35,336 nucleotides of DNA, taken from a virus. Each line of letters begins with the position of its first letter. Within the stretch, counting starts at the first letter, position 1. Position numbers and translations under genes: made by a program. Positions 3,039 through 29,211 of this stretch are shown piece after piece. The notes beneath the pieces were generated by a model. It made no database searches. It saw nothing but the letters and a program-made list of their open reading frames with translations, and had not been told where the DNA came from. The stretch is taken from positions 1 to 35,336 of the IMG/VR virus record IMGVR_UViG_3300037961_003917; one strand, written 5' to 3'.

Positions 3039-3633
3039 AGTGGGTGTGCGGGACTGGTTTATGAACGCGAACGTCGCGGCAAACCTTTTCGTATGGGCTG
3101 CCTTTGGCAAAACGAATCCCTTTCATCATCAGCTCACCGCAGTGCTTCAAACGGCTGATCTCAAAGTCAAGTCGCTTGTTCGCTAGGTGCTGCTGTTGCA
3201 GGGCAAGCTGCGTATCAACTGCCTGCTTGCAGCGATCCTGCAGGCCCTGATCGAGCGGGATGGTGGCCTGGATGGAGAGGCCCAAGTTCCAGTTGTGGTT
3301 GTCTTTCTGCCCCGTTCGCGTGTCCTTGAAAAACAGAACGTCACCGGGATTGTCTAAACGACCGTCGTCATCGAGATCGGACAGGTCATAGACCGGATCC
3401 GGGTAGCTGTATTCGTATGGGAGGCCCCACGATTTGGTTCGATTCAGATATGGCGTGACCGTCAGGGTTGGCCCCTGACATTGAATGTTTCCTCCGTAGG
3501 TGTTTGTGATCGCGCTGCCCTGAAGAATCTGTACCGCTTGATTGCTCACCGATCCGCTGCTGGTTGCGGTTGGTGATGCAGTTGCTGAGATCCCGCCAAC
3601 ATCTTGTGCGTTGACTGGGACCGCAGCGATCAC
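2998..3633 (-). CDS. Secreted protein of the three-gene exported cluster (third gene)
   Basis: Mature residues (QDVGGISATASPTATSSGSV, then ILQGSAITNTYGGNIQCQGP, a DLSDLDDDGRLDNPGDVLFF segment and a helical CKQAVDTQLALQQQ region) match a secreted protein type I recall from marine cyanophages. The start given is GTG 3633, which overlaps the stop of the upstream gene as GTGA, the same four-base coupling used at the other two junctions of this operon. The residues just upstream in the same frame (GHGLLLLGVIAAVPVNA) look like a full signal peptide, and the frame stays open to ATG 3795, which would bury it behind about 48 residues. The start is therefore unresolved. The DLDDDGRLDNPG loop resembles a calcium-binding motif. 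Function unknown. Confidence 0.65.
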   Translation of the reverse strand: MIAAVPVNAQDVGGISATASPTATSSGSVSNQAVQILQGSAITNTYGGNIQCQGPTLTVTPYLNRTKSWGLPYEYSYPDPVYDLSDLDDDGRLDNPGDVLFFKDTRTGQKDNHNWNLGLSIQATIPLDQGLQDRCKQAVDTQLALQQQHLANKRLDFEISRLKHCGELMMKGIRFAKGSPYEKVCRDVRVHKPVPHTHSISVTTSGTSAAP

Positions 3634-14753: not shown

Positions 14754-15354
14754 CCATAAAAACGCACGGAAACGCACAGATCGGTCCTCGGAACTAATCA
14801 AAGAGTCCCTGCAGCGTTACGGCGCTGCTCGCTCCATCGTCATTGACGAGGAGAATCGCATCCTCGCCGGCAACGGAACCATCGAAGGGGCCAAGGCCGC
14901 CGGCATCAAGAACCTCCGCGTCATCGAGACAGAAGGCGACGAGATCATCGCCGTTCGACGCACCGGCCTTTCTGAGGAAGAAAAGGTCGGCCTAGCTCTC
15001 GCCGACAACCGCACGGCCGATCTTTCCGAGTGGGACGTCGAGATGCTCCACAGCCTCTCGCAAGAGCACGACATCTCCAGCTGGTTCACCGAGGAAGATC
15101 TCGAGGCATTCCTCGGCGATGAAGTCGAGCCGCTGGATGAGATGCCAGAGCTGAACTCTGACGATCGCGAGCCGATCCAGCAGATGACGTTCATCGTGCA
15201 CGACCTTCAGGCCGAGATCATCAAAGAGGCCATTGAGAAGGCCAAGGCCATGGGCCCGTTTGTCGATACCGGCAATGAGAACGGCAATGGCAACGCCATC
15301 GCTCGAGTTGCTGAACTGTTCCTCAGCTGGGGAGGTGATCATGGCCTCAGCTAA
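14725..15354 (+). CDS. ParB/Srx-domain protein, partner of the Mom-like enzyme
   Basis: 209 residues from GTG 14725. N-terminal ParB domain: KNARKRTDRSSELIKESLQR, then the hallmark RILAGNGTIEGAKAAG and LRVIETEGDEIIAVRR, and a EEEKVGLALADNRTADLSEW region. The C-terminal part is an acidic linker and a short alpha-beta segment (QMTFIVHDLQAEIIKEAIEK). ParB-domain proteins use CTP or nucleotides. In phages they are often fused or adjacent to DNA-modification enzymes, not segregation systems, and no ParA is present here. It overlaps the Mom-like gene by 14 bases. A guiding or accessory role in modification is inferred. Confidence 0.75.
   Translation: MASINSLKSDHKNARKRTDRSSELIKESLQRYGAARSIVIDEENRILAGNGTIEGAKAAGIKNLRVIETEGDEIIAVRRTGLSEEEKVGLALADNRTADLSEWDVEMLHSLSQEHDISSWFTEEDLEAFLGDEVEPLDEMPELNSDDREPIQQMTFIVHDLQAEIIKEAIEKAKAMGPFVDTGNENGNGNAIARVAELFLSWGGDHGLS
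15328..15343 (+). promoter_or_regulatory. Strong ribosome binding site for the Mom-like gene
   Basis: GGAGGTGATC immediately before ATG 15341 is an almost full-length match to the anti-Shine-Dalgarno sequence, far better than most starts in this genome. It lies inside the end of the ParB-domain gene. It decides the start at 15341 and suggests high expression of the modification enzyme. Confidence 0.6.
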
Positions 15355-16108
15355 GGACATCAAGGTCGCGCCCATCTCTGCCAAAGATGCAGCGGCTGTC
15401 GTCAAGCGGATTCACTATTCCGGCTCGACTGCCGCAACCTCAAGCCTTCACCTAGGCGTCTTCCTCAACGGCCGGCTTGAAGGGGCCATGCAATTCGGCA
15501 GTCCCATCGATAAACGCAAGGTTCTCCCTCTTGTCGAGGACACGCCTTGGAATGGCTTCCTAGAGCTGAACCGAATGGCGTTCAGCGAAAACCTGCCCCG
15601 CAACAGCGAAAGCCGGGCCTTAGCCGTTGCCTTTCGGCTGATCAAAAAGCATTACCCGCACATCCAGTGGGTGCTCTCATTTGCCGACGGCGCTCAATGC
15701 GGAGATGGCACCATTTATCGGGCCAGTGGCTTTCACCTGACCGGCATCCGGCAAAACAAGACGATCCTCAAGCTCCCCAACGGCAAGGTCGTCACTGACC
15801 TAACGCTCAACGTCAACCCGCAAAAGATGGGCGGCAACGCCTCTCAGTGGAAAAAGCGTGGCGCCAAACCTCTGGCGGGCTTCCAGCTTCGCTACATCTA
15901 TTTCCTCGATCCAACAGCCAAAGAACGCCTCACAGTGCCGATCCTTCCCTTCACCCGAATAGCGGAAATGGGCGCAACTATGTACCGTGGTGAGAGCACG
16001 CGCGTGAAGCAGGCCACTGTCGGGACCACCGATAAGGCGGCGGAGCATCACCGACCCACGCGCTCCAATCTTTCCCAGGCCAGCCCCAAGACCCAGGAGG
16101 CTGACTAA
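15341..16108 (+). CDS. Mom-like DNA adenine hypermodification enzyme
   Basis: 255 residues. The GNAT-related Mom pattern is clear: HYSGSTAATSSLHLGVFLNG (25-44), LELNRMAFSENLPRNSESRA (74-93), and WVLSFADGAQCGDGTIYRAS (110-129), a near-diagnostic block shared with phage Mu Mom. Mu Mom adds an acetamido (methylcarbamoyl) group to adenine N6 and protects DNA against many restriction enzymes. The C-terminal 70 residues beyond the core are basic and unstructured. The gene lies right before the terminase genes, so DNA would be modified late, before packaging. The exact product here is inferred from the family. Confidence 0.8.
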   Translation: MASAKDIKVAPISAKDAAAVVKRIHYSGSTAATSSLHLGVFLNGRLEGAMQFGSPIDKRKVLPLVEDTPWNGFLELNRMAFSENLPRNSESRALAVAFRLIKKHYPHIQWVLSFADGAQCGDGTIYRASGFHLTGIRQNKTILKLPNGKVVTDLTLNVNPQKMGGNASQWKKRGAKPLAGFQLRYIYFLDPTAKERLTVPILPFTRIAEMGATMYRGESTRVKQATVGTTDKAAEHHRPTRSNLSQASPKTQEAD

Positions 16109-25966: not shown

Positions 25967-26389
25967 ATGGCCGTCCTTCGCGGAGAACAAGGCGCAGTCC
26001 AATTTGACGCCGCTGGCTCAAGCAATGCCACCATCGTTGGCACACGCAGCTGGAGCCTTTCAACCACCAAGGAAACTTTGGATGTCTCCAAGCATGGTGA
26101 CACCTTCCGCAGCTTCGTTGGCAGCATGATCAGCGGCTCTGGCACTGTTGAGCTGGTTTATGACCCTGACGCTACCGGCCAAGCTGCTTTCCTCGAAGAT
26201 GTTCTGACCACTGCGGATCCTGCAGACGCAACCTTCGAGCTGTTCACTACTGGCACCAGTTCTGGTACAGATTCTGTGAGCTTTGCCGGAATCATCACTG
26301 ACATGGAAATCACTTCCACCGTTGGTGAGATTGATATTGTCACCTGCAACTTCATCACCAGCGGCACCATTACCGGCAACCTTGAGTGA
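25967..26389 (+). CDS. Major tail tube protein
   Basis: 140 residues, beta-rich, MAVLRGEQGAVQFDAAGSSN, then TIVGTRSWSLSTTKETLDVS and GSGTVELVYDPDATGQAAFL, ending in a ...VTCNFITSGTITG strand. Tail tube proteins of siphophages with similar length show the W.L....E..DVS.....F...V.G..SG.... order. It is immediately upstream of the frameshifted chaperones, which fits. Confidence 0.8.
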   Translation: MAVLRGEQGAVQFDAAGSSNATIVGTRSWSLSTTKETLDVSKHGDTFRSFVGSMISGSGTVELVYDPDATGQAAFLEDVLTTADPADATFELFTTGTSSGTDSVSFAGIITDMEITSTVGEIDIVTCNFITSGTITGNLE

Positions 26390-26425: not shown

Positions 26426-26779
26426 ATGACCGGATCCAAGCGATTCGTCGACGAACTGGTTGAGGCGTTTGATCTCAACCAGCGTCGGAAATTCGTTTTG
26501 ACCCTGCCATCAGGTGCAACTAGGAACCTCTACTTCAAACCGATCACGCGCGCTGATCGCAAAAAAGCGCAGCAGCTAGCAGGCACAGACGAGGCGCTCG
26601 ACCTCAGCACCAACATGCTTTGTCTTCTTGCAGAGCTGGAGGACGGAACAAAGCCGTTTGCCCCTGCTGATGCAGCAAAGCTGCAACGGAAGCTGCCTGA
26701 GTCTGTCCTCAACGAGCTAGAGCTGTTCCTGTTTGGCCTCAGCGACACCGCTGACATGGAAGAAACAAAAAACGACTGA
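26426..26779 (+). CDS. Tail assembly chaperone G (0-frame product)
   Basis: 117 residues, MTGSKRFVDELVEAFDLNQR then KFVLTLPSGATRNLYFKPIT and RADRKKAQQLAGTDEALDLS, ending METTKND-like (DMEETKND). Siphophages encode this protein between tail tube and tape measure; it coats the tape measure during tail assembly. Its last codons contain the slippery A-AAA-AAC (26767-26773), and the -1 frame continues open to 26955. Together they are the classic G/GT pair. Confidence 0.8.
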   Translation: MTGSKRFVDELVEAFDLNQRRKFVLTLPSGATRNLYFKPITRADRKKAQQLAGTDEALDLSTNMLCLLAELEDGTKPFAPADAAKLQRKLPESVLNELELFLFGLSDTADMEETKND

Positions 26780-26955
26780 GGCAGGACAAGTGGACCTTTT
26801 TTGAGTTTCACTTGGCCTGCACTTTGGGCATGACAGTCAGCCGACTCCGCACAGAATTGACTGATGCTGAGCTGATTCACTTCGCGGCTTACTTTGAACT
26901 CAAGGCTGAGTTTGAGGAGCAAGCAGTGCAGCGCGCTAAACAGATGCGTCGGTAG
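26426..26955 (+). CDS. Tail assembly chaperone GT, made by -1 ribosomal frameshift
   Basis: If ribosomes slip back one base at A-AAA-AAC (26767-26773), the G protein continues with the -1 frame from CGA 26773: RLRQDKWTFFEFHLACTLGM, then TVSRLRTELTDAELIHFAAY and a helical tail ending KQMRR at TAG 26953-26955, for about 176 residues in total. The added T domain (W...EFHLA..LGM.V..L...L...EL..F.AYF..) is the known shape of GT-type extensions. It is otherwise unannotated coding sequence that lacks its own good start. The ratio of G to GT controls tail assembly in lambda. Confidence 0.75.
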
Positions 26956-26979: not shown

Positions 26980-29211
26980 ATGGAATCCGTCCAGCTAGTT
27001 CTAAAGCTCGAGGATCAGCTCAGCGGCAAGCTCAAAAAGATTAGCCGTGATAGCACTCGCCTCGAGCAGGCTGTCATCAGGGTTCAGAACCAAGCTGTTC
27101 GCCTGCAGCAAAAGGCGAAGCAGATGGGCGACACGCTAGGAAACGCTTTCAACCGAGCCCGCAGGGGAGCAGACGGGCTAGTTAAAAAGCTCAATGGAGT
27201 GAAAGGATTAGTTGTTGGCCTCGGGGCAGGAGCAGCAACCAAAGGGTTTATTGAGCAGGCCGCCTCGTTCGAACAAACGCAGCTCCGCCTTGAGCTGTTG
27301 TCCCGTCAATACGGAGAGTTCGATCAGGTTCAGAAGCTAGTCAGAAAGAACGCCACCACGTTCAACCAGTCCCTAGGCGAATCGTCTAGCAATTTCGCCA
27401 ACATCTTTGCTCGTTTGCGGCCGCTTGGTAAATCGCTGTCCGAGATCCAAACGGTCTACCAAGGCTTTAATGCTGTCGCGCTTGCTAGCGGCACGTCTGC
27501 TCAGGCTGCATCCTCTGCGTTCCTGCAGCTGAGCCAAGCCCTCGGATCTGGTCGACTTCAGGGCGATGAGTTCCGCTCGATCTCTGAGCAAATCCCGGGC
27601 ATCTTGACCCTCGTCTCCCAGGAGATGGGCGTCACTGTTGGAGAGCTTAAAAAGCTGGGAAGCGAGGGCAAAATCACGTCCGACATCCTGATCAACTCTT
27701 TGGCGAAAGGCTTTGAGTTGAACAAGGACAAGATTCAGGAGCTGCTTGCTGAGTCGCCTGCTGCCAAGTTCAAAGAGTTCAAAAATCGCGTTGACGAGCT
27801 GCAAGTGTCTATTGGACAGACACTGTTGCCAGCAGCCGAGGGTGCAGTCAGCGTATTAGGCGGATTGCTGGACATTGTTCAAAAACTGCCGCCTGAGCTG
27901 CAAGCATTGCTCAATGCTGCGGTAGGGGTTGGCGGCGCACTAGCTGCTGCAGCGGCTGCCGCAAACCTTTTGGGCATCAGTCTGACCAGCGCAAAAATCA
28001 AAGCTGGTTTCCTCGCGTTCGGCAAATTTGCACTTCTTGCAGGACCGATTCTCGGCGTGACTTTGGCGCTTGAGGACGCCCGACGGAAGTTCAAAGAGTT
28101 CTCGGACCTAATCAAAACCGGAACGGTTGATGAGCTTGAGACTGCGATCGAGACAACGGATGGCAACCTGAAGAAGATGGAGAAAACGCTGGCGGCTATC
28201 GAGGGCGCTGGTTACTACAAGGGACAGGCATCTGATGCCGCAGGATTGCGAGATCGCATCAGCGAAGCGGTTGATCAGCTCGACAGGCTTAGGGCTCGAA
28301 AGGACGTTCTCTCACAAACGTTCACCATCGCTGGCATCAAATACGACGCAAACATGGTTCCGATTGATCCGCCAGAGACGGTGTCTCAGCGCCTAGCTCG
28401 CGAGGAGGCAGAGCGAAAACGCAAAGAGGAAGAGGAGAAGAAAAAGCCTAAGCCGTCAATAGTTGATCCCCTTGCAGGAATTAAAGGGCAGGTTCAAGGC
28501 CTGCGAGATAGGGCAAAAATCAGCAGGCAAGAAACAGAGGAGGGCAAGCGTCAACAGCAGTTGTTAAACGACATTGCTGCGCTAACGCGGATCAGAACGG
28601 AGGAGAACGCACACCTCGTCGATGAGGCGATCAAACTGACCGGGGAGATATTTCACCAAGAGACAAAAACCCGCCAAGCCGCCAAGGCTGACAAAGATCG
28701 AGCTGACGCTGCAACGGCTGCTTTGAAGGCGCAGCAGGCAGAGGCTGATCGTTTGGAACGCTTGTATGGAGGCATCGGACAAACGATCAGCTCAGGCATT
28801 GTTGACTCGTTGATGCAGGCACAAAACGCGACGCAAGCTCTCGGGAACATGCTGCAGAGCGTCGCAAAACAGATAATGCAGCTCGGCGTCAACACACTGC
28901 TCAAAGCTGCCTTCCCTGGGGCCGGGCTTTTCAGTGGGCTGCTTGGTTTCGCAAATGGCGGCCGTCCTCCTGTTGGCCGCCCATCAATCGTTGGGGAGCG
29001 TGGGCCTGAACTGTTTGTCCCTGATCGCGCTGGAACGATTGTTCCAAACAGTGCAATGGGCGGAGCTAGCGTGACAGTCAACGTCGATGCTTCTGGCTCG
29101 TCTGTTGAGGGCAACTCCGATCAAGCCTCTCAGCTTGGGCGGATGCTCGGAGCAGCAGTGCAAGCCGAACTTATCAAGCAAAAACGTCCCGGCGGTCTCC
29201 TTGCAAGCTGA
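26980..29211 (+). CDS. Tail tape measure protein
   Basis: 743 residues. N-terminal helical part, then the tape-measure core at about 90-250 (SFEQTQLRLELLSRQYGEFD, TFNQSLGESSSNFANIFARL, GRLQGDEFRSISEQIPGILT, KITSDILINSLAKGFEL). A hydrophobic stretch follows (about 310-330: ALLNAAVGVGGALAAAAAAA), then a long coiled-coil and a C-terminus with the GERGPELFVPDRAGTIVPN motif typical of tape measures. It sets tail length and is injected. At about 1.5 A per residue it predicts a tail of roughly 110 nm. Confidence 0.9.
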   Translation: MESVQLVLKLEDQLSGKLKKISRDSTRLEQAVIRVQNQAVRLQQKAKQMGDTLGNAFNRARRGADGLVKKLNGVKGLVVGLGAGAATKGFIEQAASFEQTQLRLELLSRQYGEFDQVQKLVRKNATTFNQSLGESSSNFANIFARLRPLGKSLSEIQTVYQGFNAVALASGTSAQAASSAFLQLSQALGSGRLQGDEFRSISEQIPGILTLVSQEMGVTVGELKKLGSEGKITSDILINSLAKGFELNKDKIQELLAESPAAKFKEFKNRVDELQVSIGQTLLPAAEGAVSVLGGLLDIVQKLPPELQALLNAAVGVGGALAAAAAAANLLGISLTSAKIKAGFLAFGKFALLAGPILGVTLALEDARRKFKEFSDLIKTGTVDELETAIETTDGNLKKMEKTLAAIEGAGYYKGQASDAAGLRDRISEAVDQLDRLRARKDVLSQTFTIAGIKYDANMVPIDPPETVSQRLAREEAERKRKEEEEKKKPKPSIVDPLAGIKGQVQGLRDRAKISRQETEEGKRQQQLLNDIAALTRIRTEENAHLVDEAIKLTGEIFHQETKTRQAAKADKDRADAATAALKAQQAEADRLERLYGGIGQTISSGIVDSLMQAQNATQALGNMLQSVAKQIMQLGVNTLLKAAFPGAGLFSGLLGFANGGRPPVGRPSIVGERGPELFVPDRAGTIVPNSAMGGASVTVNVDASGSSVEGNSDQASQLGRMLGAAVQAELIKQKRPGGLLAS

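Follow-up and report, generated by a model that had tools for sequence, protein, structure and literature searches.

Production of a tail assembly chaperone, G, together with an extended form, GT, by ribosomal frameshifting is a well-known device of phages, the classical cases reportedly being those described by Levin in 1993 and Xu in 2004, and the slip site of phage lambda is GGGAAAG. Another heptamer, AAAAAAC, is given as the G/GT slip site in the relevant passages of reports on the Caulobacter phiCbK group (PMC3556154), Acinetobacter phages Loki and IME_AB3 (PMC5313236), and haloarchaeal HCTV-2, where G/GT frameshifting is itself described (PMC5009743), and "possibly" also on P. larvae phage Dragolir (PMC6003738). 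According to the sections of PMC4066793 that deal with it, A_AAA_AAC is a low-efficiency motif in E. coli that insertion sequences nevertheless very probably exploit. Frameshifting in cyanophage tail chaperones was the subject of none of the titles and abstract openings listed for cyanophage and frameshift terms, which is not proof of its absence from the literature.

The stretch analysed here, referred to as the window, comprises 35,336 nt of a viral genome (positions 1 to 35,336 of IMG/VR record IMGVR_UViG_3300037961_003917), and it very probably encodes a lambda-type G/GT pair expressed by -1 frameshifting at A_AAA_AAC with the help of a downstream hairpin. G, T, the slip site, the hairpins, and the two flanking genes described below lie on the plus strand. 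Similar to lambda gpG/gpGT and to HK97, a tail protein gene is followed by G, by a T region overlapping the 3' end of G over a short distance in the -1 frame, and by the tape measure gene. G (26426..26779, 117 aa) is located between the gene for a major tail protein (25967..26389; phrog_10528, 4e-20), which is preceded by a tail terminator (phrog_179), and the gene for the tape measure protein (26980..29211; PF20155 TMP_3, 1.8e-37), beyond which gpL-, NlpC/P60-, and gpJ-like proteins are encoded. Profile searches with G revealed matches to phrog_20784 (2e-32) and to phrog_344, a tail assembly chaperone family (0.0016). Unlike the lambda and HK97 pairs, the window G gave no match in Pfam, and its profile hit nothing in a PDB sequence search up to an E value of 1; Phage_TAC_13 (Pfam) was matched by one of 14 G members, at 0.0044. 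An AlphaFold2 model of G built from 33 sequences (the window and IMG/VR loci; pLDDT 82.5) had its top structural match in the PDB with 2ob9, a tail assembly chaperone of HK97 (E 2.8e-3, prob 1.00, TM 0.50/0.54), with YqbN (3klu) ranking fourth. Since no PDB match of the model passes an E value of 0.001, this similarity provides moderate support, and we assign the tail-assembly-chaperone fold to G with moderate confidence.

Among the named phages of the collection searched, those closest to the window were KBS-S-2A (80% in the major head protein), S-H1 (70% in G), and MED4-184/P-HS2. As these named relatives infect marine Synechococcus and Prochlorococcus, a marine Synechococcus is the presumed host of the window phage. 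The window also encodes a Mom-family DNA modification protein (15233-16108; PF25680, 4.6e-53). For comparison, at least 277 loci were collected from IMG/VR scans and named phages (275 of them having a G match with a stop, and some contigs being present twice) and split into three clades, A, B, and C, by their best G match. A pattern scan of GTDB species with the G alignment for prophage relatives matched 193 stretches, none of which was a relative. Clade A, which contains the window and S-H1, consists of at least 153 loci with 108 distinct 160-nt sequences in 51 clusters at 90% identity.

G ends with the codons ACA AAA AAC GAC TGA (stop codon 26777-26779), so that the heptamer A_AAA_AAC lies in the G frame at 26767..26773, just as the preliminary description had read it. 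By itself it is weak proof, because AAAAAAC occurs in the window at a frequency not above chance (6 copies on both strands, 4.07 expected). In-frame X_XXY_YYZ heptamers were found at 14 of 5305 codon positions in the 15 other ORFs of the window, without any A_AAA_AAN among them; therefore, such a heptamer would fall by chance within the 8-codon overlap in about 2% of cases. The sequence evidence that goes beyond chance is the conservation of the heptamer in clade A, the dN/dS of T, and the downstream hairpin. Conservation in relatives, a check that the preliminary description had proposed, turned out positive in this clade: all 153 listed clade-A loci carry the heptamer in the G frame (146 with AAC, 7 with AAA), and T continues in the -1 frame but not in the +1 frame in all 152 listed loci with more than 200 nt past the G stop, these figures being counts and not probabilities, because relatives are non-independent samples. 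The wobble positions of the heptamer are likewise fixed. The codon preceding its AAA ends in A in 51/51 clusters, and its Lys codon is AAA in all 49 clusters of usual spacing, compared with 41% of the Lys codons upstream in G.

That tRNA modifications affect frameshifting is a known idea, and a host Asn-tRNA without queuosine would ease slippage on AAC and so explain a heptamer that is weak in E. coli, an explanation that we regard as very unlikely. It draws on the E. coli data given in the relevant part of PMC4066793, which agree with the earlier characterization of AAC as the weaker motif, yet clade A keeps AAC. On the other hand, the queuosine gene tgt (TIGR00430) was present in all seven cyanobacterial genomes examined (above the cut-off in six, split over two matches in the seventh), among which the phage's own host is not certainly included, so that a queuosine-lacking host as the reason for AAC was not supported. 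Compensation of the weak AAC by the strong hairpin described below appears likelier.

The T extension (26770..26955) adds 61 aa past the slip. As predicted in the preliminary description, the -1 frame is open, namely from 26755 to the TAG at 26953-26955, giving a deduced fusion of 115 + 61 = 176 residues. While the window T had no match in Pfam, phrog_337 ("tail protein") was matched by all ten T members scanned, with a best E value of 1.8e-6. Beyond the signal region (codons 18-54), comparison of 50 clade-A clusters revealed a dN/dS of 0.068, and synonymous differences drop from 0.73 in these codons to 0.55 in codons 0-17, which make up the signal. Stop codons over the T region were found in none of the 50 clusters in the T frame, but in 50 and 44 of them in the other two frames. 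In the window, T has no ATG, GTG, or TTG upstream of its conserved Trp. Based on these data, T is a coding region that lacks a separate start codon.

An alternative in which T is a separate small protein, with a translation start of its own or with ribosomes reinitiating behind the G stop, is highly improbable, even though its frame in the window contains a CTG (26776-26778) overlapping the TGA of G and the T region of S-H1 is annotated as an ORF with a start inside T. Start codons of the three kinds are absent before the Trp in 48 of the 51 clade-A clusters (the remaining three have TTG only) and in all 11 clade-B clusters. Reinitiation at the CTG was rejected, as this codon is not conserved in clade A: of 48 clusters with Leu at this place, 28 have CTG, 16 CTA, and four TTG or TTA. 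In addition, the start annotated in S-H1 falls inside the conserved domain and truncates it, and separate translation of T would leave the fixed A at the wobble positions of the heptamer unexplained. The S-H1 product in question is AZB50580.1 (3393-3536 of locus L073), whose start is probably an annotation error. The GT fusion is unannotated in the records of S-H1, MED4-184, KBS-S-2A, and S-2L, which either lack the T product or give it in truncated form. Frameshifting into T remains our preferred reading.

The search for a downstream stem-loop, also suggested in the preliminary description, revealed a hairpin (hairpin 1, 26781..26820; -23 kcal/mol), which is the likely frameshift stimulator. 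It begins after a 7-nt spacer (26774..26780) that includes the G stop codon, inside the range of 4-10 nt for bacterial -1 signals. GCAGG (26781-26785) pairs with CCUGC (26816-26820) and 26787-26794 with 26807-26814, separated by an A.G mismatch (26786/26815); the complete 5' arm is GCAGG-A-CAAGUGGA, pairing with its complement. Compared with dinucleotide shuffles, the window hairpin reached a z of -5.1 (0/200 as good), and 5 of 1000 shuffles were as good when codons were shuffled with the T protein kept. With this codon-preserving null, the mean z was -2.89 in clade A (44/50 clusters at or below -1.64, none above 0) and -2.57 in clade B (10/11 clusters at or below -1.64). For clade C, it was -2.15 (21/24 clusters (95%) at or below -1.64), but no stem appeared against dinucleotide shuffles (mean z 0.1). 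When this test was slid along T, the structure signal peaked only at hairpin 1 and at one second place. Wobble positions in the stem are fixed in clade A, with CAG in 44/44, GAC in 47/49, and TGC in 43/43.

For the RNA alignment of clade A, 67 of 102 distinct sequences were chosen by hand, departing stems being left out, and hairpin 1 showed no covariation in this selection, because its four consensus pairs never vary. The support from sequence for hairpin 1 in this clade is codon constraint plus the replaced stems in some departing members. Altogether, 15 of 104 distinct folded clade-A sequences depart from the GCAGGA/CCUGC form, and several of these form different stems in roughly this position, e.g., AGGAAGA/UCUUCCU and GCCAGGA/UCCUGGC. 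Clade B has a stem of other sequence at the same spacing; its alignment held 15 of 16 sequences, leaving out L189, for which folding gave no stem. There, 97.9% of cells were paired and 4 of 13 pairs showed two-sided changes, a number reached by 108 of 500 shuffles, while the covariation score exceeded that of all 500. Joining of the frames by slippage of RNA polymerase on the A run, and not of the ribosome, can practically be dismissed, for although the site is a run of six A (seven in the A_AAA_AAA variants), efficient polymerase slippage usually requires longer runs, the run is six in 146 of the 153 listed clade-A loci and phased with the G codons as X_XXY_YYZ, and a conserved RNA hairpin sits 7 nt downstream.

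The predicted frameshift signal at this locus resembles the -1 signals of dnaX and IS3-family elements in combining a heptamer with a hairpin 4-10 nt downstream, following the criteria in the part of PMC4066793 concerned with them. Unlike these, the window has C and not G as the last heptamer base, and an SD-like stimulator, which is an optional feature, was not found 6-17 nt upstream of its heptamer; such a stimulator was detected in 10 of 51 clade-A and 10 of 11 clade-B clusters. The heptamer itself differs from that of lambda. Phages of the phiCbK group, Loki, IME_AB3, HCTV-2, and possibly Dragolir share heptamer and gene pair with the window but differ in their hosts, and a conserved stimulatory hairpin as in the window clade is unmentioned for them in the relevant portions of the four reports cited above. 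The sequence establishes the frames, the conserved heptamer, a coding T without a start, a selected hairpin, and a chaperone-like model of G.

We infer the occurrence and the rate of the shift as well as the roles of G and T as follows. Most ribosomes would translate G and terminate at its TGA, releasing the 117-aa chaperone, and a minority would pause at hairpin 1. The Lys- and Asn-tRNAs on AAA AAC may then slip back by one base and pair with AAA AAA, so that the shifted ribosomes would read the T frame to its TAG and produce GT with its 176 residues. If the analogy with lambda holds, the tape measure protein would be bound by many copies of G and few of GT, with T recruiting the major tail protein. 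The interpretation as a G/GT tail chaperone pair, already put forward in the preliminary description, is supported by gene order, the fold match of G, the conserved heptamer, and the lack of a start in T.

Outside clade A, the heptamer is not kept throughout: it is replaced by A_AAG in clade C and missing, with T in the +1 frame, in 12 of the 40 listed clade-B loci. Separate frames with proper starts were not found, because these departing clades keep the overlap of G and T. Clade B comprises at least 40 loci, including KBS-S-2A, whose G is 27% identical to that of the window. One version of the slip region in this clade is ATGAAAAGC, and 26 of the 40 listed loci have A_AAA_AAC or A_AAA_AAA right before the stop. 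Other heptamers are G_GGA_AAG in L192 and C_CCA_AAG in S-2L, a distant member assigned to this clade, whose T is at -1 by homology, although the +1 frame is longer. In the S-2L genome (L076), C_CCA_AAG is found in the G frame at 3330-3336 and is not annotated as a frameshift. In the +1 loci (L181, L182, L184-L188, L190, L191, L194, L195, and L077), T opens just before the G stop at the AAA of a common ATG-AAA-AGC (TTG-AAA-AGC in L077). The shift appears to have changed direction within this family. G of these +1 loci can be more than 70% identical to that of relatives using -1.

Clade C, the Prochlorococcus-phage clade with MED4-184 (L074, L075, and L198-L277), has at least 82 loci, with T at -1 wherever the sequence suffices. 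All 82 listed loci carry AAAGGAAT, i.e., A_AAG_GAA (3333-3340 in L074), and none of them has an X_XXY_YYZ near the slip. According to the relevant passages of PMC4066793, A_AAG is the best tetramer in E. coli, but it needs a strong stimulator.

The second structured place corresponds to T codons 18-24, with a z of -1.64 or lower in 44 of 56 clade-A clusters when placed at codon 21. This site (hairpin 2, 26840..26876), about 66 nt past the heptamer, is strong in most clade-A relatives (e.g., L091) and degraded in the window, with 3 of 15 pairs broken and a z of 0.6 to -1.6 depending on the offset. Hairpin 2 is formed by a 12-bp outer stem and a short inner stem. Among 63 sequences, 88% of cells pair, and the nine main pairs all form in 40. 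Two-sided changes affect 6 of 15 pairs, which was equalled by 5 of 500 shuffles; percentage paired and covariation score exceeded those of all 500, a result that kinship alone can give without structure. A kissing interaction or pseudoknot between the interior of hairpin 1 and the loop or flanks of hairpin 2 was rejected, since duplex energies were no better than in codon-preserving shuffles; the four pairings tried in 56 clusters had mean z values of 0.06, -0.08, 0.17, and 0.23. Hairpin 2 may belong to the stimulator or serve another purpose. Rather doubtful is the broader proposal that hairpins 1 and 2, equally selected, act as a bipartite stimulator that makes a weak heptamer work, in a family that keeps the G-T overlap and swaps its slip sites between A_AAA_AAC, A_AAG_GAA, G_GGA_AAG, and the +1 site ATG-AAA-AGC.

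While frameshifting of the G/GT kind and the use of A_AAA_AAC are known, its clade-wide conservation, the replacement of slip sites, and the second hairpin are new. The evolutionary evidence for the device is unusually clear in this case. With this analysis, G and GT are assigned in a widespread group of marine cyanophages. Moreover, the loci form a large natural data set of related clades with several types of slip site and one protein pair, which is useful for asking how a slip site is exchanged while the protein pair stays, and in what way a motif as weak in E. coli as AAC is used in cyanobacteria.
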